Shown: positions 1,948 through 18,575, numbered from the stretch's first letter. The stretch: 64,000 nt of DNA from Nocardioidaceae bacterium (GCA_009780515.1 WQZX01000006.1:1-64000), one strand, 5' to 3'. A program made the numbers and translations. Notes: generated by a model not told the origin, from the sequence alone.

Positions 1948-2622
1948 TTAGCGCATCGACACCGGGCGTTCACATTCGGGGCGGCGGAGGATGCCGAGGG
2001 TGATGAGCAGCTGTGCGGCGATGTAGGTCGCCATCACGGTGAAGGACTGGAGGGCCGGGAGGCCGGAGGTGAAGGCGTCGAGCGCGATGAGGGCGTCGGA
2101 GACGAAGAAGAGCGCGCCGCCGGCCCCGGCGAGCGGGTGAACGCCGGTGCTGGTGAGGGCCATCGCGGTGAGGCAGCCGCCGTACACGACGACGGCGGGG
2201 GTCATCGCGCCCGCTCCGGGCAGGCAGACGACGACGAGAGCGAGGAACGCGGCGAGGTAGGCCGCTGTCCAGCCACGGCGCCGGTGGAGGACGCTGTGGC
2301 GCCGGTAGGGCCAGAAGGCCGAGATGTAGGTGACCTGGGCGAGCAGGAAGCACGCGATCATCGCCAGGAACGCCGGGTCGCCGCCGAGAAGACGCGGGGC
2401 GGTGTCGCCGAGCCAGGAGAAGCCCAGGGCGAGCAGCAGCGCACGGACCAGGCGAGGGCGGGGCCCGAGGGTCGCCGCCAGCACGAAGAGCACCAGCGCC
2501 GGCATCAGCAGCACCTGGCTGGCGTCCGCCAGCGTGTGCGCGTGGACGAGCTGTGCCGTCAGGTGGACGACCGAGACGACGAGGTACGCCGCGAGCGCGA
2601 CTCGGGCGCGGGTGCTGGTCAC
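1948..2622 (-). CDS. lysoplasmalogenase (YhhN/TMEM86-like membrane protein)
   Basis: Multi-TM ORF with LGFSWLGDTAPRLL and FLLAQVTYISAFWPYRR, typical of YhhN family. Confidence 0.75.
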   Translation of the reverse strand: MTSTRARVALAAYLVVSVVHLTAQLVHAHTLADASQVLLMPALVLFVLAATLGPRPRLVRALLLALGFSWLGDTAPRLLGGDPAFLAMIACFLLAQVTYISAFWPYRRHSVLHRRRGWTAAYLAAFLALVVVCLPGAGAMTPAVVVYGGCLTAMALTSTGVHPLAGAGGALFFVSDALIALDAFTSGLPALQSFTVMATYIAAQLLITLGILRRPECERPVSMR

Positions 2623-3320
2623 CCGCGGATCATCTCGTGCTCACGGGTGCGCCACGTCTCGAGGACCCTGCGTGTCACAGGTCCCGGGACCGGCAGGTCG
2701 CGGTCGTCCCATCGGTGGACGGGCTGGACCGTCCGGATGCTCGAGGTCAGGAAGACCTCTTCGGCCGAAGCGCAGACCTCCAACGGCTCGTCGACCTCGC
2801 GGGCGCCGTACCAGTCGAGGACGAGGTGCCGGGTGACGCCGGGCAGGCAGCCGCTGGCGAGGGTCGGCGTGCGCAGCTCGCCGTCGACGACGTAGAAGAC
2901 ATTGGCGCCGGTGCCCTCGCAGACGTTGCCGGCCGCGTTCGCGAGCACGCACTCGCCGGCTCCGCGGGCGACGGCGTGCCGCAGCGCGACCACGTTGTCG
3001 GCGTACGCCGTGGTCTTGTGGCCTACGAGCGGTCCGTGCTCGTTCAGGCGCCACGGAGCGGTGACGACGGCGATGCTCTCGGCCGGCGGTGGCGTCGGTG
3101 CCGGTGTGATCGCGAGGTCGCCGCCGGCGGCGGTGACACGGACGCGTCCGAGGGGGAGTGGGTCGCGGGCGAGCACGTCGATCAGCCGCCGCCGAACGTC
3201 GGCGACGTCGAGCGTGGCGAGCCCCGTGGCCGCTGCGGAGCGCTCGAGCCGGGCGAGGTGGAGGTCGAGCGCGAACGGTTGCCCACCCACCACCCGGACG
3301 GTCTCGAACAGGGCCTGCAC
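2619..3320 (-). CDS. aminotransferase class IV (aminodeoxychorismate lyase-like)
   Basis: FETVRVVGGQPFALDLHLARLERSA..., KTTAYADNVVALRHAVARGAGECVLANAAGNVCEGTGANVF motif. Confidence 0.85.
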   Translation of the reverse strand: MQALFETVRVVGGQPFALDLHLARLERSAAATGLATLDVADVRRRLIDVLARDPLPLGRVRVTAAGGDLAITPAPTPPPAESIAVVTAPWRLNEHGPLVGHKTTAYADNVVALRHAVARGAGECVLANAAGNVCEGTGANVFYVVDGELRTPTLASGCLPGVTRHLVLDWYGAREVDEPLEVCASAEEVFLTSSIRTVQPVHRWDDRDLPVPGPVTRRVLETWRTREHEMIRG

Positions 3321-3444
3321 GCGGGCAACTCTAGGGTGACGACGCCCCGAACTCCGACCCCGTTTTGGTGGTCTCCTGGGGATCGGCTAGTGTTCTCAAC
3401 CGCACCGGCAAACCGGTCCGAAAGGGCCGAGAAGCAGGTGCGAT

Positions 3445-3517
<73 letters not shown>

Positions 3518-3563
3518 CTGAGTGGTCAGACCACTGGCTGACCCAGGCCAGGTAGACCACCGC

Positions 3564-3634
3564 GGTGGGTTGGCCGAGAGGCGAGGCAACGGACTGCAAA
3601 TCCGTGTACACGGGTTCAAATCCCGTACCCACCT
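3564..3634 (+). tRNA. tRNA-Cys (anticodon GCA)
   Basis: GGTGGGTTGGCCGAGAGGCGAGGCAACGGACTGCAAATCCGTGTACACGGGTTCAAATCCCGTACCCACCT. Confidence 0.95.
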
Positions 3635-3653
3635 CGCTACAACTCAACAGCTA

Positions 3654-3725
3654 GGGCGATTGGCGCAGCGGTAGCGCGCTTCCTTGACACGGAAGAGGTC
3701 ACTGGTTCAAACCCAGTATCGCCCA
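3654..3725 (+). tRNA. tRNA-Val (anticodon GAC)
   Basis: GGGCGATTGGCGCAGCGGTAGCGCGCTTCCTTGACACGGAAGAGGTCACTGGTTCAAACCCAGTATCGCCCA. Confidence 0.95.
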
Positions 3726-3731
3726 CCACCC

Positions 3732-3779
3732 AAAAAAGGCCCCGTGACCTGCAGGAATGCAGATCACGGGGCCTTTGAA
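3732..3779 (+). terminator. intrinsic-type terminator after the tRNA cluster
   Basis: AAAGGCCCCGTGACCTGCA...TGCAGATCACGGGGCCTTT inverted repeat. Confidence 0.8.
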
Positions 3780-4119
3780 ACTCACCGGCATGCTACGGAA
3801 TCGCTATCTCGACCCCGGGCACAAACGTCACAGCCGCCCCGCCCTCCGGAGAGAACGGAGCGGTCATGCGGTGCGCCAGGCCGGCCCGCTCAGATCAGTC
3901 CGCCTTGAGGTCGAGGGGCGGGTGGCCCTGACCGTTCTGGAATCGGGTGGTAGCGCGGGCCGGGCGGGTGGTGGCGTCACCGGATCAGCATCCACGAAAT
4001 GTCGGGCCGGCTCATCCGGATATACGGCCGCGGGGCCCTCTCGCCTCTGGGTAGAGTCTGCGCCAAGAGAGCGGCCCAGCCGTAGGGGTCGCCGTGCGAT
4101 CCCTAGATTGGTGGCTCCC

Positions 4120-6108
4120 GTGTCCGACATCTCGATCCTCATCCGCAACGACGCCGGAGAGGAGGAGCGGACCGTCGAGGCCGGCACCAGGGCCTGGCAG
4201 CTCTTCGCCGACGATCCCGACGTGGTCGCGGCTCGCGTCGGTGGCGCCTTGAAGGACCTGTCCTACGAGCTTGCCGCCGGTGACGCCGTCGAGTCGGTCG
4301 CCATCGGCAGCCCCGACGGGCTGGACATCCTGCGCCACTCGACCGCCCACGTCCTGGCCCAGGCAGTGCAGCAGGTCTTCCCGGACGCCAAGCTCGGCAT
4401 CGGCCCGCCGATCACCGACGGCTTCTACTACGACTTCGACGTCGAGAGCCCGTTCGTGCCCGAGGACCTCGCCAAGCTCGAGACGGCGATGCGCAAGATC
4501 ATCAAGGAGAACCAGCGCTTCGAGCGCCGGGTCACCAACGACGCGGACGCGCTGACCGAGCTCGCCGACGAGCCGTACAAGGTCGAGCTGATCGGCCTGA
4601 AGGGCTCCGGGAACGCGGAGGACGCAGCCGAGGGAGCCGGCGCCGAGGTCGGCGCCGGCGAGCTGACCATCTACGACAACATCAACCGCAAGGGCGAGGT
4701 CGCGTGGAAGGACCTCTGCCGCGGCCCGCACCTGCCGACCACCAAGCGCATCCCGGCGTTCAAGCTGATGCGGAGCGCGGCGGCGTACTGGCGCGGCGAC
4801 GAGAAGAACAAGCAGCTCCAGCGCATCTACGGCACCGCATGGCCGACCAAGGAGGAGCTCGAGGAGCACCTCCACCGCCTCGAGGAGGCCGAGAAGCGCG
4901 ACCACCGCAGGCTCGGCCGCGAGCTCGACCTCTTCAGCTTCCCCGACGAGATCGGCTCCGGCCTGCCCGTCTTCCATCCCAAGGGCGGTGTGATCAAGCG
5001 CGAGATGGAGGACTACGTCCGCCAGCGCCACATCGAGGAGGGCTTCTCGTACGTCGGCACGCCGCACATCACCAAGGACGGCGTCTTCCACACCAGCGGC
5101 CACCTGCCGTACTACGCCGACACGATGTTCCCGCCGATGGAGTTCGAGGGTGCGAACTACCAGCTCAAGGCGATGAACTGCCCGATGCACAACCTCATCT
5201 TCAGCAGCAGGGGCAGGTCCTACCGCGAGCTGCCGCTGCGGCTCTTCGAGTTCGGCCACGTCTACCGCTACGAGAAGTCCGGCGTCATCCACGGCCTGAC
5301 CCGCGTGCGCGGCTTCGCGCAGGACGACAGCCACTCCTACTGCACCCCGGAGCAGGCGCCCGACGAGGTCAAGCACCTGCTGGACTTCATGCTCAGCGTG
5401 CTGCGCGACTTCGGCCTCGACGACTTCTACCTCGAGCTCTCGACGCGCGACGACAGCAAGCCGGACAAGTTCGTCGGCTCCGACGAGGACTGGGCGACCG
5501 CGACCGAGATCCTGGAGAAGGTCGCCACCGAGTCCGGCCTCGACCTCGTGCCCGACCCGGGCGGCGCGGCCTTCTACGGCCCGAAGATCTCCGTCCAGGC
5601 CAAGGACGCCATCGGCCGCACCTGGCAGATGGGCACGGTCCAGTACGACTTCAACCAGCCCGCCCGCTTCGGGCTGGAGTACACCTCGTCCGACGGCTCG
5701 AAGCAGCAGCCGGTGATGATCCACTCCGCGAAGTTCGGCTCGATCGAGCGGTTCCTCGGCGTGCTCGTCGAGCACTACGCCGGTGCGTTCCCTCCCTGGC
5801 TCGCGCCGATCCAGGTCGAGGGCATCCCGATCGCCGAGCGCCACGCCGACTACCTGTACGACGTCGCGGCCCAGCTCAGGAAGCAGGGCATCCGCGTGGA
5901 GGTCGACGACTCCGACGACCGCATGCAGAAGAAGATCCGCAACGCGCAGCTGCAGAAGGTGCCGTTCATGGTCATCGCCGGCGACGCCGACGTGGAGGCA
6001 GGCGCGGTCAGCTTCCGCTATCGCGACGGCCGTCAGGACAACGGTGTGCCGATCGCCGAGGCGATCGAGCGAGTCGTCGCCGCCGTACGCTCCCGCGAAC
6101 AGGTGTGA
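4120..6108 (+). CDS. thrS: threonyl-tRNA synthetase
   Basis: TGS domain start [15 protein letters not shown]; catalytic [28 protein letters not shown]; the ORF is open further upstream, but GTG 4120 fits the N-terminus. Confidence 0.97.
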
Positions 6109-6115
6109 GGTCGTG

Positions 6116-7105
6116 ATGCGGCTCCGGGTCGGCGCGGCGGCCACCGTTGCGGCCGTCGCGCTGCTCGGCGGCTGCGCGCTGCCCGCGAGCATCACGGGCA
6201 AGGACCAGGCGGGGCCGCGGGCGCCGCTCAGCTCGGCCTCCGCGTCCGGCGACGGCGGGGGAGCCGGGGTGCCGTCGGACGCCAGCAGCCTGGCGTCTGC
6301 CGCGCAGGAGATGGCGACGCGCGACAACGGCACCGGCGCCCCGGCGGACTCACCCGGTGTTGTCACCGACCCGAGCGCCATGCTCGGCGGAGACATCAGC
6401 TGGCCCCAGTGCCCGCCGGGCATGGGCATTCCGCAGAAGCGCTCGACCGGGCAGCCGATGCCGCTGCCCGACGCCGAGTTCGTCGTCGTCGGTCTCACCG
6501 ACGGACCGGGCTTCGTGGCCAACCCGTGCCTCAAGTCGCAGGTCCAGTGGGTGAAGGTCCACCGGCTGCCGTTGTCGGCGTACTCCGTCGTCAGCTATCC
6601 CGACGCCAAGGACCTCGCCAAGTACGGCGCCGACGGACCCTACGACCCGTCCACGCTGCCCGGCAGGCTCAAGAATGTGGGCTACCAGGAGGCGACGTAC
6701 AACGTCGGCTCGATGGGGAGCGCGGGGCTGAACACCCCGCTGGTGTGGCTGGACGTCGAGAGCGTGCCCGACTTCGACTGGCCCGCGAACAACACCGCGA
6801 ACAACGCCGCCGTCGTGCAGGGCGAGGCACGCGGCTACAAGGAGGCCGGGTACGCCGTCGGCGTCTACGGCACCCCGACGATCTGGAAGGGCATCGTCGG
6901 CGGGCTCACGCTCGGCGGGAACGTCCCGGAGTGGCGTGCCGCGGGCCAGACCTCGCAGGCCGAGGCCACCATCAGGTGCGGCTCCGCGTGGTCCATCCAG
7001 GGCGGTCAGGGCGTCCTGGGACAGTGGGTGGAGGAGCGGCGCGATCGCAACCTCACCTGCCCGGGAGCCATGGGCGACCTGAGCAAGTGGTTCGATCGGG
7101 GCTGA
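6116..7105 (+). CDS. lipoprotein with GH25/DUF1906-like domain
   Basis: Lipobox ALLGGC; DISWPQCPPG..., TPLVWLDVESVPDFDWP; start chosen at MRLRVGAAATVAAVALLGGC. Confidence 0.65.
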   Translation: MRLRVGAAATVAAVALLGGCALPASITGKDQAGPRAPLSSASASGDGGGAGVPSDASSLASAAQEMATRDNGTGAPADSPGVVTDPSAMLGGDISWPQCPPGMGIPQKRSTGQPMPLPDAEFVVVGLTDGPGFVANPCLKSQVQWVKVHRLPLSAYSVVSYPDAKDLAKYGADGPYDPSTLPGRLKNVGYQEATYNVGSMGSAGLNTPLVWLDVESVPDFDWPANNTANNAAVVQGEARGYKEAGYAVGVYGTPTIWKGIVGGLTLGGNVPEWRAAGQTSQAEATIRCGSAWSIQGGQGVLGQWVEERRDRNLTCPGAMGDLSKWFDRG

Positions 7106-7152
7106 CCGCTCGGCGCGAGACAGGGGTACGACGACGCGGGGACGAGGGGACG

Positions 7153-7857
7153 ATGGTGGACGTGAAGCCGGATGGGCGCCAGCTGCGCTGGCGTGAGCAC
7201 AACGAGCAGCGCCGTCAGGCGATCGTGCAGGCCGCCGTCGAGGTGCTCGAGAGCCAGCAGCCGGGCGACGAGGCGCAGGTCCAGGCCGTCGCCGACCGCG
7301 CGGGCCTGAGCCGCACGGTGATCTACCGGCACTTCGAGGACCGCTCGGACCTCGACCGGGCCGTGCAGCGCTCCATCTGCGACCAGATCGGCCTCGAGCT
7401 GCTCTCCGCGCTCGCGATCGACGGCAAGCCCGACGAGATCGTCACCCAGGTCGTCAGCGCCTTCGTGCGCTGGACCGTCGCCCACCCGTCGCTGTTCCTG
7501 TTCGCCGACCGCGACCTCGTCGAGTGGGGGCCGAGCCCGATCGCCGAGGCGATGGAGCAGATCGCGGCCGGGATCGAGGACATCATCAGCACCGTCGTCG
7601 GCGCGCTCGGCGTGGAGCTGAGCCCCAACGACATGGCCGGCCTGGAGCCGTGGGTGTTCGCGATGATCGGCGGCGTCTTCGCGGCCGTACGACGCTGGCT
7701 CGGCCGACCCGAGCGCCGACCGGACACCGAGGGCTTCGTCGCGATGATGGCCGAGGTGATCTGGGTCCAGATCAACGGCATGGCGCTGTCGCGCGGGATC
7801 AGCCTCCCGGACCTGCCGGTCGCCGAGCTGCTCCAGCCGCTGAGTGGGGCGGAATGA
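7153..7857 (+). CDS. TetR/AcrR family transcriptional regulator
   Basis: N-terminal HTH RRQAIVQAAVEVLESQQ...VQAVADRAGLSRTVIYRHFEDRSDLDRAV. Confidence 0.85.
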   Translation: MVDVKPDGRQLRWREHNEQRRQAIVQAAVEVLESQQPGDEAQVQAVADRAGLSRTVIYRHFEDRSDLDRAVQRSICDQIGLELLSALAIDGKPDEIVTQVVSAFVRWTVAHPSLFLFADRDLVEWGPSPIAEAMEQIAAGIEDIISTVVGALGVELSPNDMAGLEPWVFAMIGGVFAAVRRWLGRPERRPDTEGFVAMMAEVIWVQINGMALSRGISLPDLPVAELLQPLSGAE

Positions 7858-9133: not shown

Positions 9134-10039
9134 ATGAGCGAGCAGCACACCGCCGAGAGCGGCACCGGTACGTCCCGAGTCAAGCGCGGCATGGCCGAGA
9201 TGCTCAAGGGCGGCGTGATCATGGACGTGGTCACGCCCGACCAGGCCAAGATCGCCGAGGACGCCGGAGCTGTCGCGGTGATGGCCCTCGAGCGCGTGCC
9301 CGCCGACATCCGGGCCCAGGGCGGCGTCTCGCGCGCCAGCGACCCGGACATGATCGACGGCATCATCGAGGCCGTCTCGATCCCGGTCATGGCCAAGGCG
9401 CGCATCGGCCACTTCGTGGAGGCGCAGGTGCTGCAGAGCCTCGGTGTCGACTACATCGACGAGTCCGAGGTGCTCACGCCGGTCGACTACGCCAACCACA
9501 TCGACAAGTGGGCCTTCACGGTGCCCTTCGTGTGCGGTGCCACCAACCTCGGCGAGGCGCTGCGTCGCATCACCGAGGGCGCGGCCATGATCCGCTCCAA
9601 GGGCGAGGCCGGCACCGGTGACGCCTCCAACGCGGTGACGCACATGCGCACCCTGCGCCAGGAGATCCGCCGGCTGACCGTCCTCAACGAGGACGAGCTG
9701 TACGTCGCCGCCAAGGAGCTGCAGGCGCCGTACGAGCTGGTCAAGGAGGTCGCCGCTGCCGGCAAGCTCCCGGTCGTGCTGTTCACCGCCGGCGGCCTCG
9801 CCACCCCGGCCGACGCCGCGATGATGATGCAGCTCGGCGCCGAGGGCGTCTTCGTCGGCTCCGGGATCTTCAAGTCCGGCAACCCGGCCCAGCGCGCCGA
9901 GGCCATCGTGAAGGCCACGACCTTCTACGACGACCCCGACGTGATCGCGAAGGTCTCCCGCGGTCTCGGTGAGGCCATGGTCGGCATCAACGTCGACGAG
10001 ATCCCGCAGCCCCACCGCCTCGCTGAGCGCGGCTGGTAG
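9134..10039 (+). CDS. pdxS: pyridoxal 5'-phosphate synthase subunit PdxS
   Basis: [56 protein letters not shown]. Confidence 0.97.
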
Positions 10040-10176: not shown

Positions 10177-10277
10177 TTGGGACTTCGGTCCCCGGACCGG
10201 TTTGGCAAAATCCCAGGTGGAATGGGCACAAAGTCCCGCATTCCACCACGCGCCCCGACCCCGCGCGCCTAGCGTCG
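10177..10277 (+). promoter_or_regulatory. putative operator/promoter region: GGGAC-N4-GTCCC box, second GTCCC box, TAGCGT -10
   Basis: GGGACTTCGGTCCC (10179-10192), GGGCACAAAGTCCC (10224-10237), GCGCGCCTAGCGTCG (10263-10277); same architecture at 14281-14377. Confidence 0.6.
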
Positions 10278-10352: not shown

Positions 10353-10931
10353 ATGAAGAAGACCACCAAGGGCGCCATCGCAGCGTCCGGCGCCGCTGTC
10401 CTGCTGATGGGCGGCGCAGGCACCCTCGCCTACTGGACCGGCTCGCAGACCGTTGCCGGCACCTCCATCACCTCGGGTGAGCTCAAGCTCGGCGCGCCGT
10501 CGTGCGGCGGCTGGGTGTACGACGGAACGTCCACCAGCGTCACCAATTTCGTCCCTGGCGACGTCGTGTCCGAGACCTGCACCTTCGGCATCACCGCGAT
10601 CGGCGACAACCTGAGCGCCAAGGTCACCGCGCCTGCGTCGGTGTCGCGAAGCGGCACCGACCCGACATCCGCCTCGGCGACCGTCGCCGCGACCTATTCG
10701 CTCAGCGGCGCGGGTGGTGCCAGCGGGGCGATCCTGGACAAAGACACCATCACGTCCGCCGACAACGCCAAGACCCTGACTGCCGTCATCAAGGTCAGCT
10801 TCCCGTTCGGCACCGACGAGAGCGCGTCGAAGACTGTCAACGCGAACGACACCCAGAGCTGGACGGCCTCGCTCGACGACCTCACGGTCAGCCTCACGCA
10901 GATCCAGACCGCGGCCAACCCGGCTACCTGA
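10353..10931 (+). CDS. exported protein with alternate (SipW-type) signal peptide, RER_14450-like
   Basis: MKKTTKGAIAASGAAVLLMGGAGTLAYWTGSQTVAGTSITSGELKL signal region. Confidence 0.85.
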   Translation: MKKTTKGAIAASGAAVLLMGGAGTLAYWTGSQTVAGTSITSGELKLGAPSCGGWVYDGTSTSVTNFVPGDVVSETCTFGITAIGDNLSAKVTAPASVSRSGTDPTSASATVAATYSLSGAGGASGAILDKDTITSADNAKTLTAVIKVSFPFGTDESASKTVNANDTQSWTASLDDLTVSLTQIQTAANPAT

Positions 10932-10979
10932 GCAGTCGCGATCTGATCTCGTCATCGGATGAAGGACGGGTCGACTCCC

Positions 10980-11672
10980 ATGAAGGTGCTCGGTTGGCTG
11001 GGACAGGTCATGTCCTGGTTGGTGATCCTGTGTGTGGCGTTGGTGCTGGCGGTCGCGGTCATAGTGCCGCGGCTCGCCGGCGCCACGCCGTACACGGTGC
11101 TCACCGGATCGATGCGACCGCACTATCCGCCAGGAACCCTGGTGGTCGTGAAGCCGGTCGATGCCGACACCCTGTCGGTGGGCCAGGTGGCGACCTACCA
11201 GATCCAGTCGGGGGAGCCCGCCGTGGCGACCCACCGGATCGTTGCGATCGGCACCACGCTCACCGGGCAGCACGTGTTCACCTTCAAAGGTGACGCCAAT
11301 CCTTCGCCGGACCCAGCGCCGGTTCAGCCGGCGCAGATCCGCGGCCAGCTCTGGTACGCCGTGCCGTACCTGGGCTACGCCAACAACGTGCTCACCGGTC
11401 ACCAGCGGCAGGTCGCCGTGGTGATCGTGGCCGGGCTGCTCATCGGGTACGCCGTCCTCATGTTCGCCGGTGCCCTCCGGGACCGGCGGCGGAGGCGGCG
11501 GCCCGGGAGCGGCGGCGATCCGGAGCGGCTGCCGGCACGGCCGGCCCACGTGGCCGCCGTACCGGAGACGACGCCGCTGCTGGTCATGGGCGGGGGAGTC
11601 GTCACCTTCCTGCTCGCCTCGGGCCTGATCGGGCTGGTCCACCGCCGATCGGTGGCCAGGCTGCACGGCTAG
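10980..11672 (+). CDS. signal peptidase I, SipW/ER-type (S26B)
   Basis: YTVLTGSMRPHYPPGTLVVV, VATHRIVAI, FKGDANPSPD; Ser-His type (His in place of catalytic Lys). Confidence 0.88.
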   Translation: MKVLGWLGQVMSWLVILCVALVLAVAVIVPRLAGATPYTVLTGSMRPHYPPGTLVVVKPVDADTLSVGQVATYQIQSGEPAVATHRIVAIGTTLTGQHVFTFKGDANPSPDPAPVQPAQIRGQLWYAVPYLGYANNVLTGHQRQVAVVIVAGLLIGYAVLMFAGALRDRRRRRRPGSGGDPERLPARPAHVAAVPETTPLLVMGGGVVTFLLASGLIGLVHRRSVARLHG

Positions 11673-11707
11673 CCGCCCGCCTCACCCACACCTTCTCCTC
11701 CCATCGA

Positions 11708-12406
11708 ATGACGCCGAAGGAGCCATCCGTCGTGATCCGTCGTCTCGTCGCCTGCCTGGCGGCCGCCCTCGCGGTGGTCGTCGGCGCGCAGCCGGCGCAC
11801 GCGGCGGCTCCCGATATCGGCTTCAGCCCCGACGGCGTGCACTGGTCGTCGAAGCTCACCCAGCCGTTGTTCGACGATGCGGTGCGCTGGGTTCCGGGTG
11901 ACTCGCGGCAGGCCTCCTTCTACGTCCGCGACCAGGGGCCGACCGACGGCGACATGGTCGTCGACGTGGTCGCGGGCGACGCGCACCAGCTGCTCTCCTC
12001 GGGCGACGTGACGATCGCCGCACGTGTCGGCTCCGGCGGCTGGGTCGACGTGCACGCGGGCAAGACCCGCGTGACCCCGGCCGTCCTGGGCATCGCGCGC
12101 TCCGCCGCCGATCGGGTCACGGTGCGGGTGGCGCTGGCTCCCTCGGCCACCGTGGGCGAGGACCTGAAGACCTCGTTCCACCTCCAGGTGACGATGTTCC
12201 AAGGTGGCGTCGAGGGCATCCACCTGCACAACGGCCACGGCAACGGCGGCAACGGGCAGGGGGCGAGCGGCGTCGGCGGCGCGGGATCGGGCCTGCCGAA
12301 CACCGGGTCGCCGGTGGCCGTCGGCTGGATCTGGCTCGCCGCCGGGCTCATCGGGGCCGGCCTCGCGCTCGTCGTACGACGGAAGCGGGAGGTGCGCCAT
12401 GACTGA
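11708..12406 (+). CDS. cell-wall-anchored protein with LPXTG-type sorting signal
   Basis: N-terminal Sec signal (..AQPAHAAAP) and C-terminal LPNTG-hydrophobic segment-RRKRE. Confidence 0.75.
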   Translation: MTPKEPSVVIRRLVACLAAALAVVVGAQPAHAAAPDIGFSPDGVHWSSKLTQPLFDDAVRWVPGDSRQASFYVRDQGPTDGDMVVDVVAGDAHQLLSSGDVTIAARVGSGGWVDVHAGKTRVTPAVLGIARSAADRVTVRVALAPSATVGEDLKTSFHLQVTMFQGGVEGIHLHNGHGNGGNGQGASGVGGAGSGLPNTGSPVAVGWIWLAAGLIGAGLALVVRRKREVRHD

Positions 12407-12983
12407 GACCAGATCCACCTGGTTCGGCCGCGGCCGCACGCGGGCTCTGCTGTCCGCGGGACTCCTGCTCGGTGCCGGCGCGGTCGCCACGTCGGCGTAC
12501 TGGACCTCGTCGGCGAAGGTCACCGGCACCACCATCACCGCCGGCGCGATGAACATCGACCTGGCGAACGACGTCGCCGTGAAGCCCGAGACCTACACGT
12601 GGTCGGGCCTGAACCTCGCCGGCATGACGGCCGGCTCGACCGCGGCCGCGGTGCTGAAGGTTTCCAACAACTCCACCGGCGCGCTGACCTTCTCCTACCG
12701 CGTTCAGGCGGCTGCGACCAACGCCTCGGGCCTGGGCGGTGCGCTCAGGCTGACGGTGCTGAGCGGCGGCACCGTCAGCGGATCGACCTGCACCGGCGGC
12801 ACCGCCATCGGCTCGGGCGGCGCGACGCTGAACGGCTTCGACCAGCCGGCCGCGGCCGACCTGGCGCCCGGGCAGTCGGCGAGCCTCTGCGTGCAGGTGG
12901 GCCTCCCGACCGGTACGGGCGTCGCGGCAGGCTCCACGTCGACCGTCACCTTCACCTTCCCCGCGACGCAGGTGCACTCATGA
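12399..12983 (+). CDS. exported protein with alternate (SipW-type) signal peptide
   Basis: RALLSAGLLLGAGAVATSAYWTSSAKVTGTTITAGAMNIDL; translationally coupled to 11708-12406 (ATGACTGA). Confidence 0.82.
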   Translation: MTETRSTWFGRGRTRALLSAGLLLGAGAVATSAYWTSSAKVTGTTITAGAMNIDLANDVAVKPETYTWSGLNLAGMTAGSTAAAVLKVSNNSTGALTFSYRVQAAATNASGLGGALRLTVLSGGTVSGSTCTGGTAIGSGGATLNGFDQPAAADLAPGQSASLCVQVGLPTGTGVAAGSTSTVTFTFPATQVHS

Positions 12984-14254
12984 GCAGGATCGTTCGGATC
13001 GCACGCGAGGCAGCCCTCTGGACCGGTGGGCTGCTGGGCGCGCTCTGCCTGGTCTCGCTGCTCGCGGGATGGGTGCTCCACGTGACGCCGCTGGTCTTCG
13101 CGTCCGGGTCGATGACGCCGTCGTACGGCGTGGGCTCGCTGGGCATCGCCCACCAGGAGGCGGCGTCCGACATCAGGGTCGGCGACGTCGTCAGCGTCGT
13201 CAACGACCAGGGCCTGCGGGTCACCCACCGGGTCGTCGCGGTCGCGCACCAGGGCGGCGACGCCGTGCTGACGCTGCGGGGCGACGCCAACAACACGCCC
13301 GACGGCCAGACCTATCGCGTCGCCTCGGCACCCCGTGTGGTCCTCGACGTCCCGTACGCCGGCTACGTGCTCAACACCGTCGCCAGCCCGTACGGCGTGG
13401 CCGTCGCTGCGGCCGGTGTGATGGGGCTGCTGCTCCTCGCCTTCGGCGGATCGGCCGGATCGGCCAACCGCCGCCGCGTCCGCACCCTCGTGCCCGTCGG
13501 CGTCGTGTCGGCGCTGGTCGTCGGGGGAGTCGCCGGCGCGAGCGGCGCCGCACCGTGGGCCTTCACCTCGGCCTACTGGACCGACTCCGCGACCGCCACC
13601 GTCGACGCGAGCGTCGCCGGCTCCGTCGACACGACGCCGCCGACGCTGAGCAGCCCGACGCCGGCGGACGGTGCCTACGACACGGCCTGGTCGAACCTCG
13701 GGTGCGGCGGCACGTCGCAGCTCTGCGTCAACGCGACCGACGTCGGGTCGGGCGTCGGCACGGTCACCGTCCAGATGTTGCGGACAGGCACGGTCCAGCA
13801 GTGCTGGAACGGATCGGTCTTCGTCAGCGGAACCGCATGCGCGGCGCGGTCGATGTCCGTCGCCGCGGGCAGCCAGTACGCCTCCAGCGGTCTCGCCTCC
13901 GGGATCATGGTGCTGGGGACCTACCAGGCGAACTTCACCGCGACCGACGTCGCCGGCAACCAGTCCACGCTCTCGGTCGGCTTCAGCGTCGGCCCGGTCA
14001 TCAGCAGCTGCACGCGCAACACCTCGAGCGGGGCGATCACCATCAGTTGGAGCCCGGTCGCCGGTGCGACGTCGTACAGCGCGCAGAGCTCGTCGCCCGG
14101 CGTCGGCTCCAACGCCAACCCGCCGGTCACGCTGAACGTCGGCAAGAACGCGTCCGGCACGGTCCAGGTGACCGCTGTCGGTCCGACGGGCCAGGTGACC
14201 TCGGCGGGGTGGACGTACAGCGGCGGCGGCTCCAACCAGACCTGTCACTCGTGA
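12980..14254 (+). CDS. fusion: SipW/ER-type signal peptidase + internal alternate signal peptide + Ig/FnIII-like secreted region
   Basis: ASGSMTPSYGVGS, VTHRVVAV, LRGDANNTPD (peptidase); then RRRVRTLVPVGVVSALVVGGVAGASGAAPWAFTSAYWTDSATATV; then DTTPPTLSSPTPADG... and FnIII-like ITISWSPVAGATSYSAQ. Confidence 0.82.
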   Translation: MSRIVRIAREAALWTGGLLGALCLVSLLAGWVLHVTPLVFASGSMTPSYGVGSLGIAHQEAASDIRVGDVVSVVNDQGLRVTHRVVAVAHQGGDAVLTLRGDANNTPDGQTYRVASAPRVVLDVPYAGYVLNTVASPYGVAVAAAGVMGLLLLAFGGSAGSANRRRVRTLVPVGVVSALVVGGVAGASGAAPWAFTSAYWTDSATATVDASVAGSVDTTPPTLSSPTPADGAYDTAWSNLGCGGTSQLCVNATDVGSGVGTVTVQMLRTGTVQQCWNGSVFVSGTACAARSMSVAAGSQYASSGLASGIMVLGTYQANFTATDVAGNQSTLSVGFSVGPVISSCTRNTSSGAITISWSPVAGATSYSAQSSSPGVGSNANPPVTLNVGKNASGTVQVTAVGPTGQVTSAGWTYSGGGSNQTCHS

Positions 14255-14280
14255 GTCCGGACAGGGCCTCCTAGTCATTC

Positions 14281-14377
14281 GGGACCAGGGTCCCGGGCGC
14301 GTTCGGTCGGACCTGGGCCGAGGAGGGCAGAAGTCCCGGCATTAGCGACTTTTCGGTCAGATGCGCGCCTAGCGTCG
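14281..14377 (+). promoter_or_regulatory. putative operator/promoter region paralogous to 10177-10277
   Basis: GGGACCAGGGTCCC (14281-14294), GGGCAGAAGTCCC (14325-14337), GCGCGCCTAGCGTCG (14363-14377). Confidence 0.6.
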
Positions 14378-14432
14378 CGAGTGTCGACGCGGATCTGCCG
14401 CGCGATCGTCACTTCCTACGGGGGCACCAACG

Positions 14433-15098
14433 ATGAGCAAGACCGAATCGCCCGCGACCAAGCACCGGAGCCGTCGCCGCCACCTCGCACCGCTGATGTG
14501 GGCCAGCGGCGCCGTCGCCGCGGTGCTGCTGGTCCTGGGCGTCAACGGCACCCTGTCGGACTGGGCGACCGCGAAGATCACCAACGACACCAACACGGTG
14601 AAGGCGGCCGACTCGGTGATCCTGCAGGAGTCCGGCCCGAACAGCGCGGTGTGCAACTCGACCGACTCCGCCGACGCGTCCAACGAGTACACCTGCTCCA
14701 CCATCAACAAGTACGGCGGCACCGCCACGCCGCTCGAGCCCGGTGACGACCAGAGCGTCACGGTCACCATGACGAACACCGGCACCGCGTCCGGCTCGCT
14801 GACGCTCAAGCCGAGTGCGTGCGGCATGACCGGCGGCAGCCCCACGGCGAGCTCCAGCATCTGCGCCGTCGCGACCGTCACCGTCAGCTGCACCTCGCCG
14901 TCCGCCCTCGACACCACCGCCACGCCGGCCACACTCGACGACTTCACCGGCGGCGGCGCGCAGTCGGTTGCGACGCTGGACGCCGGCGCCTCGACCGACT
15001 GCACCTTCGACGTGGCGCTGCCCAGCGACGCCTCGCCGCAGATCGCCGGTCAGGTCGCCTCGCAGCCCCTGGTCTGGACGCTGACGGCGACCCCCTGA
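14433..15098 (+). CDS. SipW-type exported protein, six-Cys paralog 1
   Basis: [65 protein letters not shown] shared with the next gene. Confidence 0.75.
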   Translation: MSKTESPATKHRSRRRHLAPLMWASGAVAAVLLVLGVNGTLSDWATAKITNDTNTVKAADSVILQESGPNSAVCNSTDSADASNEYTCSTINKYGGTATPLEPGDDQSVTVTMTNTGTASGSLTLKPSACGMTGGSPTASSSICAVATVTVSCTSPSALDTTATPATLDDFTGGGAQSVATLDAGASTDCTFDVALPSDASPQIAGQVASQPLVWTLTATP

Positions 15099-15101
15099 TC
15101 C

Positions 15102-15809
15102 ATGGCCCCCAAGCACGCGTCTCGGGGGCGGGCTCGCCGTCGTGGACGCCGGCGCCGGCCCGGACCGGGAGCGATCCTGGTCGGCGCCTGCGGCCTCGCC
15201 GCGGCGATGCTGACGCTCAGCGTCGACGGAACCCTGTCGGACTGGTCGACGGCGATCATCGGCAACAGCACCGACACGGTCGCCACGGCCGCGGCCGTGA
15301 TCCTGCAGGAGGTCGGGCCCGACGGCACCGCCGCCCACACGTCCCAGACCTGCCGCTCCAGCGACGGCGCGTCCAACTCCGCCACCTGCTCGACGATCAA
15401 CAAGTACGGCGGCACCAGCTCGCCGCTGGTGCCCGGCGGCAGCCAGGCCACCGACGTCACCTTCACCAACCTCGGTGCGGCCGACGCGTCGAGCTTCGTG
15501 CTCACCCCGGGCACCTGCGCGTCGTCCCCGTCGACCGGAACGCCGACCCCGAACAACCTGTGCACGACCGACCTGACGGTCGCGATCAGCTGCTCGGGCG
15601 GCTCGACGTACGCCGCCGGGTCGGCCTGGACCGACCTCGTCCGTGGCGCCGGTCCCGCGGGCACCATCCCCACGCTCACCCACGCGGCGGGCCTGGCGGC
15701 GGGCGCGTCGGCGACCTGCCGCTTCACCGTCGCCCTGCCCTCGGGCGCCTCCGTGCTCGACCAGGGCGTGACCGTCAGCCAGCCCCTCACCTGGACCCTG
15801 GACAAGTGA
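15102..15809 (+). CDS. SipW-type exported protein, six-Cys paralog 2
   Basis: GTLSDWSTAIIGNSTDTVATAAAVILQEVGPDG; TCSTINKYGGTSSPLVPGG; same Cys layout as the preceding protein. Confidence 0.75.
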   Translation: MAPKHASRGRARRRGRRRRPGPGAILVGACGLAAAMLTLSVDGTLSDWSTAIIGNSTDTVATAAAVILQEVGPDGTAAHTSQTCRSSDGASNSATCSTINKYGGTSSPLVPGGSQATDVTFTNLGAADASSFVLTPGTCASSPSTGTPTPNNLCTTDLTVAISCSGGSTYAAGSAWTDLVRGAGPAGTIPTLTHAAGLAAGASATCRFTVALPSGASVLDQGVTVSQPLTWTLDK

Positions 15810-17152
15810 CCCGGCCCCGTCACCGGCGACCATCTCGCGGCCCCGGCCGCTGGGTGGTCGCCGTGGCGGGCACGGCCCTGCTCGGCCTCGCGTGGGGAAC
15901 CTCCGGGACGCTGTCGTCCTGGACCGCCGGTCAGGTCCTGGACTCCACCGACACCGCGGGGACCGGCGGCATCGCCGTCACCCACGCCTACGGCAGCACC
16001 TGCGTCGGAGCGATGCGTACGGCGTCCCAGGCCTGCGCCGCGTCCCTCACCCCGGCCACGGCACTGCCGGCGACGTCCGTGACCGACTCGATCACCAACG
16101 ACAGCGGCCGGTCGATCACCCAGAGCGTCACCGCGAGGTCGTGCGCCCCCGTCCAGCTCGCCGACTCCGCGACGTCCACGAACCCGCTGCTGCCGCGCAA
16201 CGACATCGCCTTCAGCCCTGGCGGCGGTCCGGGATCGGTGAGCGGGAGCGGCGCGGTGGCGCTCGGCACGACGGGCTACGCCACCGACACCACCGCGCAG
16301 ACGGTGGGCGGCACTCCCGGCGGTCTCATCTCCCTCGTCGAGTACGACTACGGCTACGGGGTGTGGTTCAAGACGACCGCGACCACCGGCCGGCTCTTCG
16401 GCCTCGCGTCGAACCCGAGCAACACCTCGTCCACCTCGACCACGACCTACGACCGGACGCTCTCGCTGTCCGCAGGCAAGCTGGTCTTCGCGGCCGCCGG
16501 TGCGCCTGCGGTGACGAGCTCGGGGACCGTCAACGACGGCAGCTGGCACTACGCCTACGTGTCGCTCACGTCCAGCGCCATCACGCTGGTCCTCGGCCTG
16601 ACGGTCACGACCAAGGACACCGTCTACGTCGACGGCAGCTCGGTCGGCAGCGCCTCGGGCTCGAGCTCGCTGAGCACGCCGACCGGCTACTGGAGCGTCG
16701 GCGGCGGGTTCGCCGGCTCGCTGTCCGGCTTCGCCGACTACAACGGCACGAGCTCGCCGACCAGCCCGCCCGCATCGCCGTACTCCGGCGCGACCGACGT
16801 GTGGCCGCTCAACGACAGCGGCTACTCGACGTACGCCGGGACGATGCCGACCGGGATGACCACTCCGTGCGCGCGGGTCGCCGCCGCGCTCACCTTCGCC
16901 AGCCCCTCCGCCGGCACCGGGATGGTCGGGCTCGGCACGCTGGCCTCCACGACCTACCCGATCGCCGCTCCCGCCGCGGGCGCGACGCAGACGATGACGA
17001 TCACGACCAGCCAGGGGCCGGGCTACACCTCCGACCTGGCGGGGCTGCACCTCTACGTCCCGCTGGTCTTCAGCTACGGCACCAGCCCGGCCACGGGCTG
17101 GACGCTGATGATGCAGTGGGCGGGCGACGCGAGGGACGTGGTGATCGCATGA
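15806..17152 (+). CDS. SipW-type exported protein with LamG/concanavalin-like domain
   Basis: [22 protein letters not shown] signal region; [14 protein letters not shown]...[11 protein letters not shown]...[22 protein letters not shown] LamG-like; GTG start overlaps previous stop. Confidence 0.72.
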
Positions 17153-17988
17153 GCGAGTCGCGGTTCCTGAGGATGCTCAGCTGGGCGCTGCTCGCGCTGC
17201 TGGTCGGCGGGATCGCCTGGGCCGGCATCTGGCGTCTCGAGGGCGGTCGCTGGGAGCGGGTCGAGACCGCGTCCATGGGATCGGTCGCGCCGGTGAACAC
17301 CCTGCTGTGGGTGGAGCCGGCCAGGTTCTCCGACCTCAGGGTCGGCGACTTCATCACGTTCCACCCGCCCGGTCACCCCGACGTGACCTACAGCCACCGC
17401 GTCCACGTCATCAACCCCGACGGCACGATCGGCACCAAGGGCGAGATCACCCCGCCGGACCCGTGGACGATCACGAGCAAGGACCTCGTCGGCAAGGTGG
17501 TCATGCGCTGGAAGGGCGTGGGCTGGCTGGTCGTCGCCGCGCCCTTGCTGCTGGTCGGGGGACTCCTGCTCTGGCTGGCCGTCTGGCGCATCCGCGAGCC
17601 GCGCTGGCGGCTGCCGACCACCGTCGTCGGTGCGGCCCTGATCCTCAGCCTGGCGATCGTGGTCTACCGCCCGCTGATCCAGGCCGAGCAGCTGGGCTTC
17701 AGCTCGGTGCCGGGCGGGGCGCGGGCGACGTACGTCTCGACGGGGCTGCTGCCGGTGCGGCTGCAGGCCTACCGCGGCGAGCACGCGGACCTCGGCGACG
17801 GGCACGTCGGCACGGTCCTGGTCACCCAGCGCGACGGCAACGGCCGCTACGGCATCACCATGCGCCCGCACATCCCGCCCTGGTGGTGGCTGGTGCTCGT
17901 CCTGGCGTGCTTCGTGCCGGCGCTGTGGACCCTCGTCGTCGGGCTGCCGTCCGAGGTCGAGCCGAAGAGGCGCAGGGCCGCCTCGTAG
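17149..17988 (+). CDS. S26 signal peptidase-like membrane protein (divergent)
   Basis: [54 protein letters not shown] overlap with previous gene; several TM segments. Confidence 0.7.
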
Positions 17989-17999
17989 GCTTGGCGTTC

Positions 18000-18575
18000 G
18001 TGCCAGCGATCGGAGTCTTCGCCCTGCAGGGGGACGTGCGCGAGCACCTCCATGCCCTCACCGAGCTCGGTGCCGACGCGTTCGCCGTACGGCGCCCCGA
18101 GGAGCTCGAGCGCTGCGACGGACTGGTGGTCCCGGGCGGCGAGTCCACCACGATGTGGAAGCTCGCCCGGACCTTCGACCTGCTCGAGCCGATGCGGGCC
18201 CGGATCAAGGCCGGCATGCCGGCGCTCGGCACCTGCGCGGGCATGATCATGCTCGCCGACCGCATCGTCGGCGGAATGCCCGACCAGGAGACGGTCGGCG
18301 GCCTCGACGTGACCGTACGACGCAACGCGTTCGGCCGGCAGGTCGACTCGTTCGAGACCCAGCTGGCCGTCGTCGGCCTCGACGACCCGGTGCACGCGGT
18401 GTTCATCCGCGCGCCGTGGGTCGAGCAGACCGGTCCGGACGTCGAGGTCCTCGCCTCGGCGATGGACCACCCCGTCGCCGTACGGCAGGGGCGGCTGCTG
18501 GCGACGTCGTTCCACCCCGAGGTCGACGGTGACCGCCGGATCCACCGCCTCTTCCTCGATCTGGTGCCCGGATAG
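18000..18575 (+). CDS. pdxT: pyridoxal 5'-phosphate synthase glutaminase subunit PdxT
   Basis: [54 protein letters not shown]. Confidence 0.95.

Follow-up and report, generated by a model that had tools for sequence, protein, structure and literature searches.

Two putative SipW/TasA-type export modules with their own signal peptidases between pdxS and pdxT in a Nocardioidaceae bacterium

A 64,000-nucleotide stretch of DNA from a Nocardioidaceae bacterium (GCA_009780515.1 WQZX01000006.1:1-64000; hereafter the window, from whose first letter all coordinates are counted) carries between pdxS and pdxT a block of genes for signal peptidases and for exported proteins with atypical signals. This raises the question of whether the block is a single system, and whether its products are assembled at the cell surface, as in the SipW/TasA-type matrix assembly that has been studied in Bacillota and archaea. 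A preliminary description of this DNA favored one self-contained surface-structure or matrix system of eight open reading frames (ORFs). We found that positions 10353-17988 are filled by nine plus-strand ORFs, which we named P1 to P9 in 5' to 3' order; the additional one is P3, whose product has a conventional signal as well as an LPNTG motif for sorting. The gene overlaps previously reported at 12399/12406, 12980/12983, 15806/15809, and 17149/17152 are all exact.

The block is not one system but two separable modules, A (P1-P5) and B (P6-P9), because gene content in relatives separates P1-P5 from P6-P9. Module A stands alone in most Nocardioides, Rhodococcus, Williamsia, Gordonia, Arthrobacter, Glutamicibacter, and Rathayibacter loci, while module B occurs without it at pdxS-pdxT in five genomes (G048, G020, G105, G108, and G114) and away from this site in others. 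Both are present together in the window, in Root240, Root682, and Pimelobacter simplex 3E, and in several other genomes. We propose, with a probability of roughly 0.6, that these two neighbors are inherited independently of each other and that each is an export-and-assembly module of the SipW/TasA kind; they would use dedicated peptidases, donor strands, and a sortase-anchored base.

Signal peptidases and their signals

The preliminary description recognized SipW-type peptidases with cognate alternate signals, and profile searches with TIGR02228, TIGR04088, and TIGR04089 all found matches in the locus. P2 (10959-11672; S51, H92, D112, D118) and P5 (12980-14254; S44, H83, D102, D108) score 85.1 and 65.6 bits against TIGR02228, the SipW/endoplasmic reticulum (ER)-type family, for which the curated cut-off is 51.85 bits. 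P9 (17149-17988; S42, H83, D104) is a divergent ER-type enzyme with an extra C-terminal domain flanked by transmembrane segments (TMs); it falls below this cut-off, which its homologues in genomes G193 and G207 reach. These three proteins are the only TIGR02228 matches in the whole 3.68-Mb genome, which elsewhere encodes two LepB-type peptidases and has six matches to sortases above cut-off. As previously noted, a His replaces the usual Lys of signal peptidase I; the resulting Ser-His pair with Asp, rather than Ser-Lys, is invariant across the P2, P5, and P9 families. Human SEC11A/C is among the matches of the P2 profile (about 1e-14). P5 and P9 form their own clades in the tree (100/100), separate from P2, with the long P5 branch uncertainly placed. 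From their sequences, P2 and P5 are predicted to be SipW/ER-type signal peptidases, and P9 a sub-threshold relative.

All six exported regions share Trp at subsite P2' of the inferred cut (positions inferred by alignment to TasA and marked here with a slash), where TasA has Phe (GTWA/AFND). In module A, the sites are A26/Y27-W28 in P1 (10353-10931; signal GAGTLA/YW), A33/Y34-W35 in P4 (12399-12983; ATSA/YW), and A198/Y199-W200 within P5. In module B, they are S42/D43-W44 in P6 (14433-15098; NGTLS/DW), S46/D47-W48 in its paralogue P7 (15102-15809; DGTLS/DW; 46% identical in the alignment), and S37/S38-W39 in P8 (15806-17152; SGTLS/SW), a protein with a LamG-like domain and homologues in module B loci. 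The six aromatic motifs listed earlier are real, and the Trp is not there by chance, given that it occupies P2' in 77 of 81 P1 homologues, 71/71 for P4, and all 14 for P6/P7. Distant module B copies (L144, L146, and L147) have Phe or Tyr at this position.

The family models do not cover all six signals. P1 belongs to both TIGR04089 (exp_by_SipW_III; 137.9 bits, cut-off 60) and TIGR04088 (cognate_SipW; 23.8 bits, cut-off 19), and P4 to TIGR04088 (26.1 bits). TIGR04088 is matched neither by P6, P7, and P8, whose TLSxW signals fall outside both NCBIfam families, nor by the internal site of P5 in the window. These models name a signal, not a function. P6 has no NCBIfam or Pfam family above cut-off, and the LamG-like assignment of P8 comes from a match to Laminin_G_2 (E 0.0023) under the curated cut-off.

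What might hold an aromatic residue at this position? An aromatic P2' hampers LepB; TasA has Phe at P2' and Trp at P2, and SipW cuts it but LepB does so very poorly (PMC10269814). F29 of TasA also belongs to the donor strand in the fiber (PMC9674648). Because of these two properties of TasA, the aromatic residue after the hydrophobic core may be tied, by analogy, to both peptidase choice and assembly. This poses a sharp question: is the P2' aromatic kept both as a signal-peptidase code and as a donor-strand plug?

If peptidases are matched to neighboring substrates, as the preliminary description suggested, the two should be inherited together, and for P9 and the TLSxW proteins this match is strong. 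We surveyed 200 Nocardioides genomes for P9 (E < 1e-30) and P6/P7 (E < 1e-29), and found P9 in 21 genomes and P6/P7 in 20. All 20 lie within the 21, so that substrates occur in 20/21 P9 genomes and P9 in 20/20 substrate genomes, with the genes close together. Genomes G108 and G020 have P9 and substrates with no other SipW-type peptidase detectable, and loci L133 and L134 hold minimal substrate-P9 pairs. The pairing of P9 with GTL[SA]xW signals, and their co-inheritance, is therefore well supported. Enlarged versions of module B also occur: L018 (G020; 2046-7708) has five TLxxW proteins with one P9, and L148 (7377-10791) combines a pair of P9 genes with at least two TLxxW proteins.

The fusion protein P5 and the LPXTG protein P3

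The preliminary description did not remark that P5 appears to carry a substrate of its own. After the catalytic domain and second TM, P5 continues with a basic loop, a third TM (residues 169-187), a T-x-A/x-[FWY]-T-D motif, and Ig/Fn3-like sequence; the third TM and internal alternate signal (FTSA/YWTD, to A198/Y199-W200 and D202) span 13484-13582 on the plus strand. We recounted this site in 78 rows from Nocardioidaceae, Nocardiaceae/Gordoniaceae, Micrococcaceae, and Microbacteriaceae loci, of which 76 aligned there: Ala is present at subsite P1 in 76/76, Thr at subsite P3 in 63, and an aromatic residue at P2' in 61. The catalytic residues and A198 are invariant among 56 homologues. In 4 of these 56, TIGR04088 matches inside the TIGR02228 protein at the same place (E up to 0.01), which we take as independent confirmation of the predicted internal signal. 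A strict regular expression recovered the motif in 48/84 copies, a shortfall due partly to wrong TM calls and variant motifs. We conclude that P5 is, to judge from its sequence, a peptidase-substrate fusion kept across four actinobacterial families. In Bacillus subtilis, TapA is an Ig domain with a donor N-terminus (AFHDI) that donates a strand but cannot accept one, and tapA and sipW overlap (PMC10151520); P5 looks like TapA and SipW merged.

P3 (11708-12406) differs from its neighbors in having an ordinary AxA-type Sec signal. It matches NF058582 (29.0 bits, cut-off 27) and TIGR01167 (18.4 bits, cut-off 15.9), with an LPXTG motif, a TM, and a basic tail. In an hhalign comparison, the mature part of P3 matches mature P1 only from residue 16 onward (93%), and for this reason P3 appears to be a P1 relative that lacks the N-terminal donor segment and has an LPXTG anchor. 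As such, it could serve as a wall-bound, acceptor-only base. LPXTG-type motifs are present in most Nocardioidaceae copies of P3, whereas the Rhodococcus counterparts lack them. Rhodococcus loci (e.g., L062, L074, and L113) have a P3-like gene with a GSLGS-type tail, on the opposite strand and adjoining module A.

Assembled filaments or monomeric adhesins

Our proposal combines these parts as follows. In each module, a dedicated ER-type (Ser-His) signal peptidase would remove the alternate signals, which the Trp at P2' would make difficult for general signal peptidases. The new N-terminus would bear an aromatic that, like F29 of TasA, plugs into the next subunit, so that cleavage would yield a donor strand and the subunits would polymerize. 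In module A, P2 (and P5) would process P1 and P4. P5 would hold its alternate-signal Ig-like cargo behind the third TM, to be cut by P5 itself or by P2, and the released tail would act as a TapA-like initiator that donates a strand but cannot accept one. P3, which would leave the cell by its ordinary signal and be attached to the wall by sortase, would provide the acceptor-only base. In module B, P9 would process P6, P7, and the LamG-like P8. Here we infer the cleavage sites, self-processing, polymerization, anchoring, and adhesin role. A more ambitious version has P5 as a self-processing polyprotein freeing its own TapA-like initiator, and takes GTL[SA]xW signals and P9 to form an orthogonal pair of signal and peptidase, giving two insulated filament lines per cell; it is tentative, and we would give it somewhat less than an even chance.

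An AlphaFold2 (AF2) model of P1 (pLDDT 82) was compared with the PDB using Foldseek, and the top match was the TasA fiber (8aur; E 9e-3, probability 0.95, TM-score 0.34), followed largely by Fim/Pap donor-strand pilins. A TasA-like fold for P1 is suggestive only, and a profile sequence search of P1 in the PDB gave nothing significant and matched no TasA chain. The surface-structure character originally proposed for this locus remains probable in light of this fold similarity, with filament formation a matter of inference.

Several observations weigh against our proposal. With E 9e-3 and a low TM-score, the match of P1 to TasA is a weak one. Mature P6 and P7 have little or no similarity to P1 by hhalign, the E-values of which are uncalibrated and come from single comparisons, and the AF2 model of P7 was poor and was not used for fold claims. 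LPXTG motifs occur in 18/41 P3-like proteins and in none of the Rhodococcus copies. About one-fifth of P5 copies, mostly from one Rhodococcus/Williamsia lineage, have no aromatic residue at P2'. The co-occurrence of P9 with P6/P7 has a hypergeometric probability of 1e-26 that is not corrected for kinship, and genome G167 is an exception to it, with a P9 (L141, 7304-8206) that has no TLxxW substrate within 15 kb. By eye, the gene adjoining this orphan P9 resembles an iron-dependent alcohol dehydrogenase/maleylacetate reductase.

Some of these observations would also be expected if dedicated peptidase-substrate export were real but its products were monomeric Ig-like or LamG-like adhesins, at the surface or secreted, that form no polymers. 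The LamG-like domain of P8, the Ig-like tails in P5, the weakness of the P1-TasA match, and the absence of a profile relationship between P6/P7 and P1 are all consistent with this alternative. We nevertheless consider it unlikely, given that P1 belongs to TIGR04089 with a SipW-cognate signal, that its top structural matches are donor-strand subunits, that Trp is kept at the donor-strand position, and that P3 keeps the domain while lacking just the donor part.

Another alternative is that P5 and P9 do not act on their neighbors and have structural or regulatory roles, with all processing left to P2 or the LepB-type enzymes. P9 scores 26.2 bits, below the TIGR02228 cut-off, and one reference in PMC13082335 describes B. 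subtilis SipW in its title as bifunctional. We regard this as quite improbable: Ser, His, and Asp are kept in P9 itself and are invariant in the P5 and P9 families, G020 and G108 have P9 with its substrates and no other detectable SipW-type enzyme, and the pairs of substrate and P9 in L133 and L134 are minimal.

Comparison with known systems places the proposed export-and-assembly modules close to several others without matching any one of them. As in the tapA-sipW-tasA operon of B. subtilis, the locus has a dedicated SipW, a T-x-A/x-aromatic signal, a suggested TasA-like fold (P1), and an Ig-type initiator candidate beside SipW, where B. subtilis has TapA. Unlike that operon, it has several peptidases, an initiator-like domain fused to a peptidase, an LPXTG-anchored P1-like protein, and a second module that uses a signal type of its own. 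The sipW-tasA/calY system of Bacillus cereus, with CapP, similarly combines SipW-processed camelysins with an accessory assembly protein, but it is described as sortase-independent, and we found no mention of a peptidase fusion there (PMC13082335). In the sipW-bsaABCRSD operon of Clostridium perfringens, SipW is needed for a filament protein to be secreted and to polymerize, although there is one SipW gene and sortase is unneeded for polymerization (PMC7395162). Chaperone-usher pilins (FimG, FimA, and PapA), which are among the Foldseek matches of P1, share the donor-strand principle; here there is no usher or periplasmic chaperone and the organism is Gram-positive; the analogy is one of mechanism only.

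Our literature search for SipW-type systems in Actinomycetota found no account, though such may still exist. Judged by its genes, the system is a variant of SipW/TasA-type export that is unusual both for its separate peptidase-signal pair and for the fusion of a peptidase to a substrate. If our proposal is true, the locus would add a third, uncatalogued peptidase-signal pair with parts inherited together, and a natural peptidase-substrate fusion that ties nucleation to secretion, plus a wall-anchored acceptor.

The pdxS-pdxT site

The block is flanked upstream by pdxS (9134-10039, plus strand; PF01680 match C6:9173-9790, E 5.5e-105), outside the modules, and downstream by pdxT (17991-18575, plus strand; TIGR03800, 236 bits), which starts at TTG 17991 or GTG 18000, 2 or 11 nt past P9. 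The locus is common in Actinomycetota, where we obtained 429 pattern matches for it, of which 380 were confirmed. We examined the pdxS-pdxT gap in 49 Nocardioides genomes: 16 have these modules there, 13 have nothing, and 19 have other genes, frequently on the opposite strand (L019-L037); the remaining genome has no pdxT. The interval is an insertion hot spot.

Module A occupies the same site in Nocardioides, Pimelobacter, Aeromicrobium, and Marmoricola; the P2 tree groups mostly by family (5 label changes versus 30 when shuffled); and the GC content of the block (71.8%; GC at third codon positions, GC3, 0.90-0.98) is close to that of its flanks (70-71%). Because of this shared site, family-wise grouping, and native composition, our results indicate an old, patchily kept locus. 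Recent acquisition of the block as a mobile module, a narrower form of the acquisition suggested in the preliminary description, is very improbable on these grounds despite the patchy distribution, and we rejected a recent genomic island for the same reasons. That description had set acquisition against conservation of the block in all relatives; the block is not fixed, yet module A is widespread. Aeromicrobium loci L088, L108, and L129 have module A twice in tandem at the pdxS-pdxT site.

The modules may also share an element of control. We found no match to Rfam in the locus and no sigma-70 consensus promoters there. A GGGAC-N4-GTCCC palindrome precedes both modules, 82-84 nt before an identical GCGCGCCTAGCGTCG. 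Upstream of P1, the palindrome is GGGACTTCGGTCCC, with GCGCGCCTAGCGTCG 84 nt on (10179-10277), and upstream of P6 it is GGGACCAGGGTCCC, with GCGCGCCTAGCGTCG 82 nt on (14281-14377). These are the only two sites in the 64 kb with the exact palindrome and the exact GCGCGCCTAGCGTCG. The palindrome, which resembles the DosR box, might serve as an operator or form an RNA hairpin. Of seven exact palindromes in 1.45 Mb of related loci, six lie upstream of P1 or P6; one more precedes P1 in L142, a locus that was not part of the discovery set.

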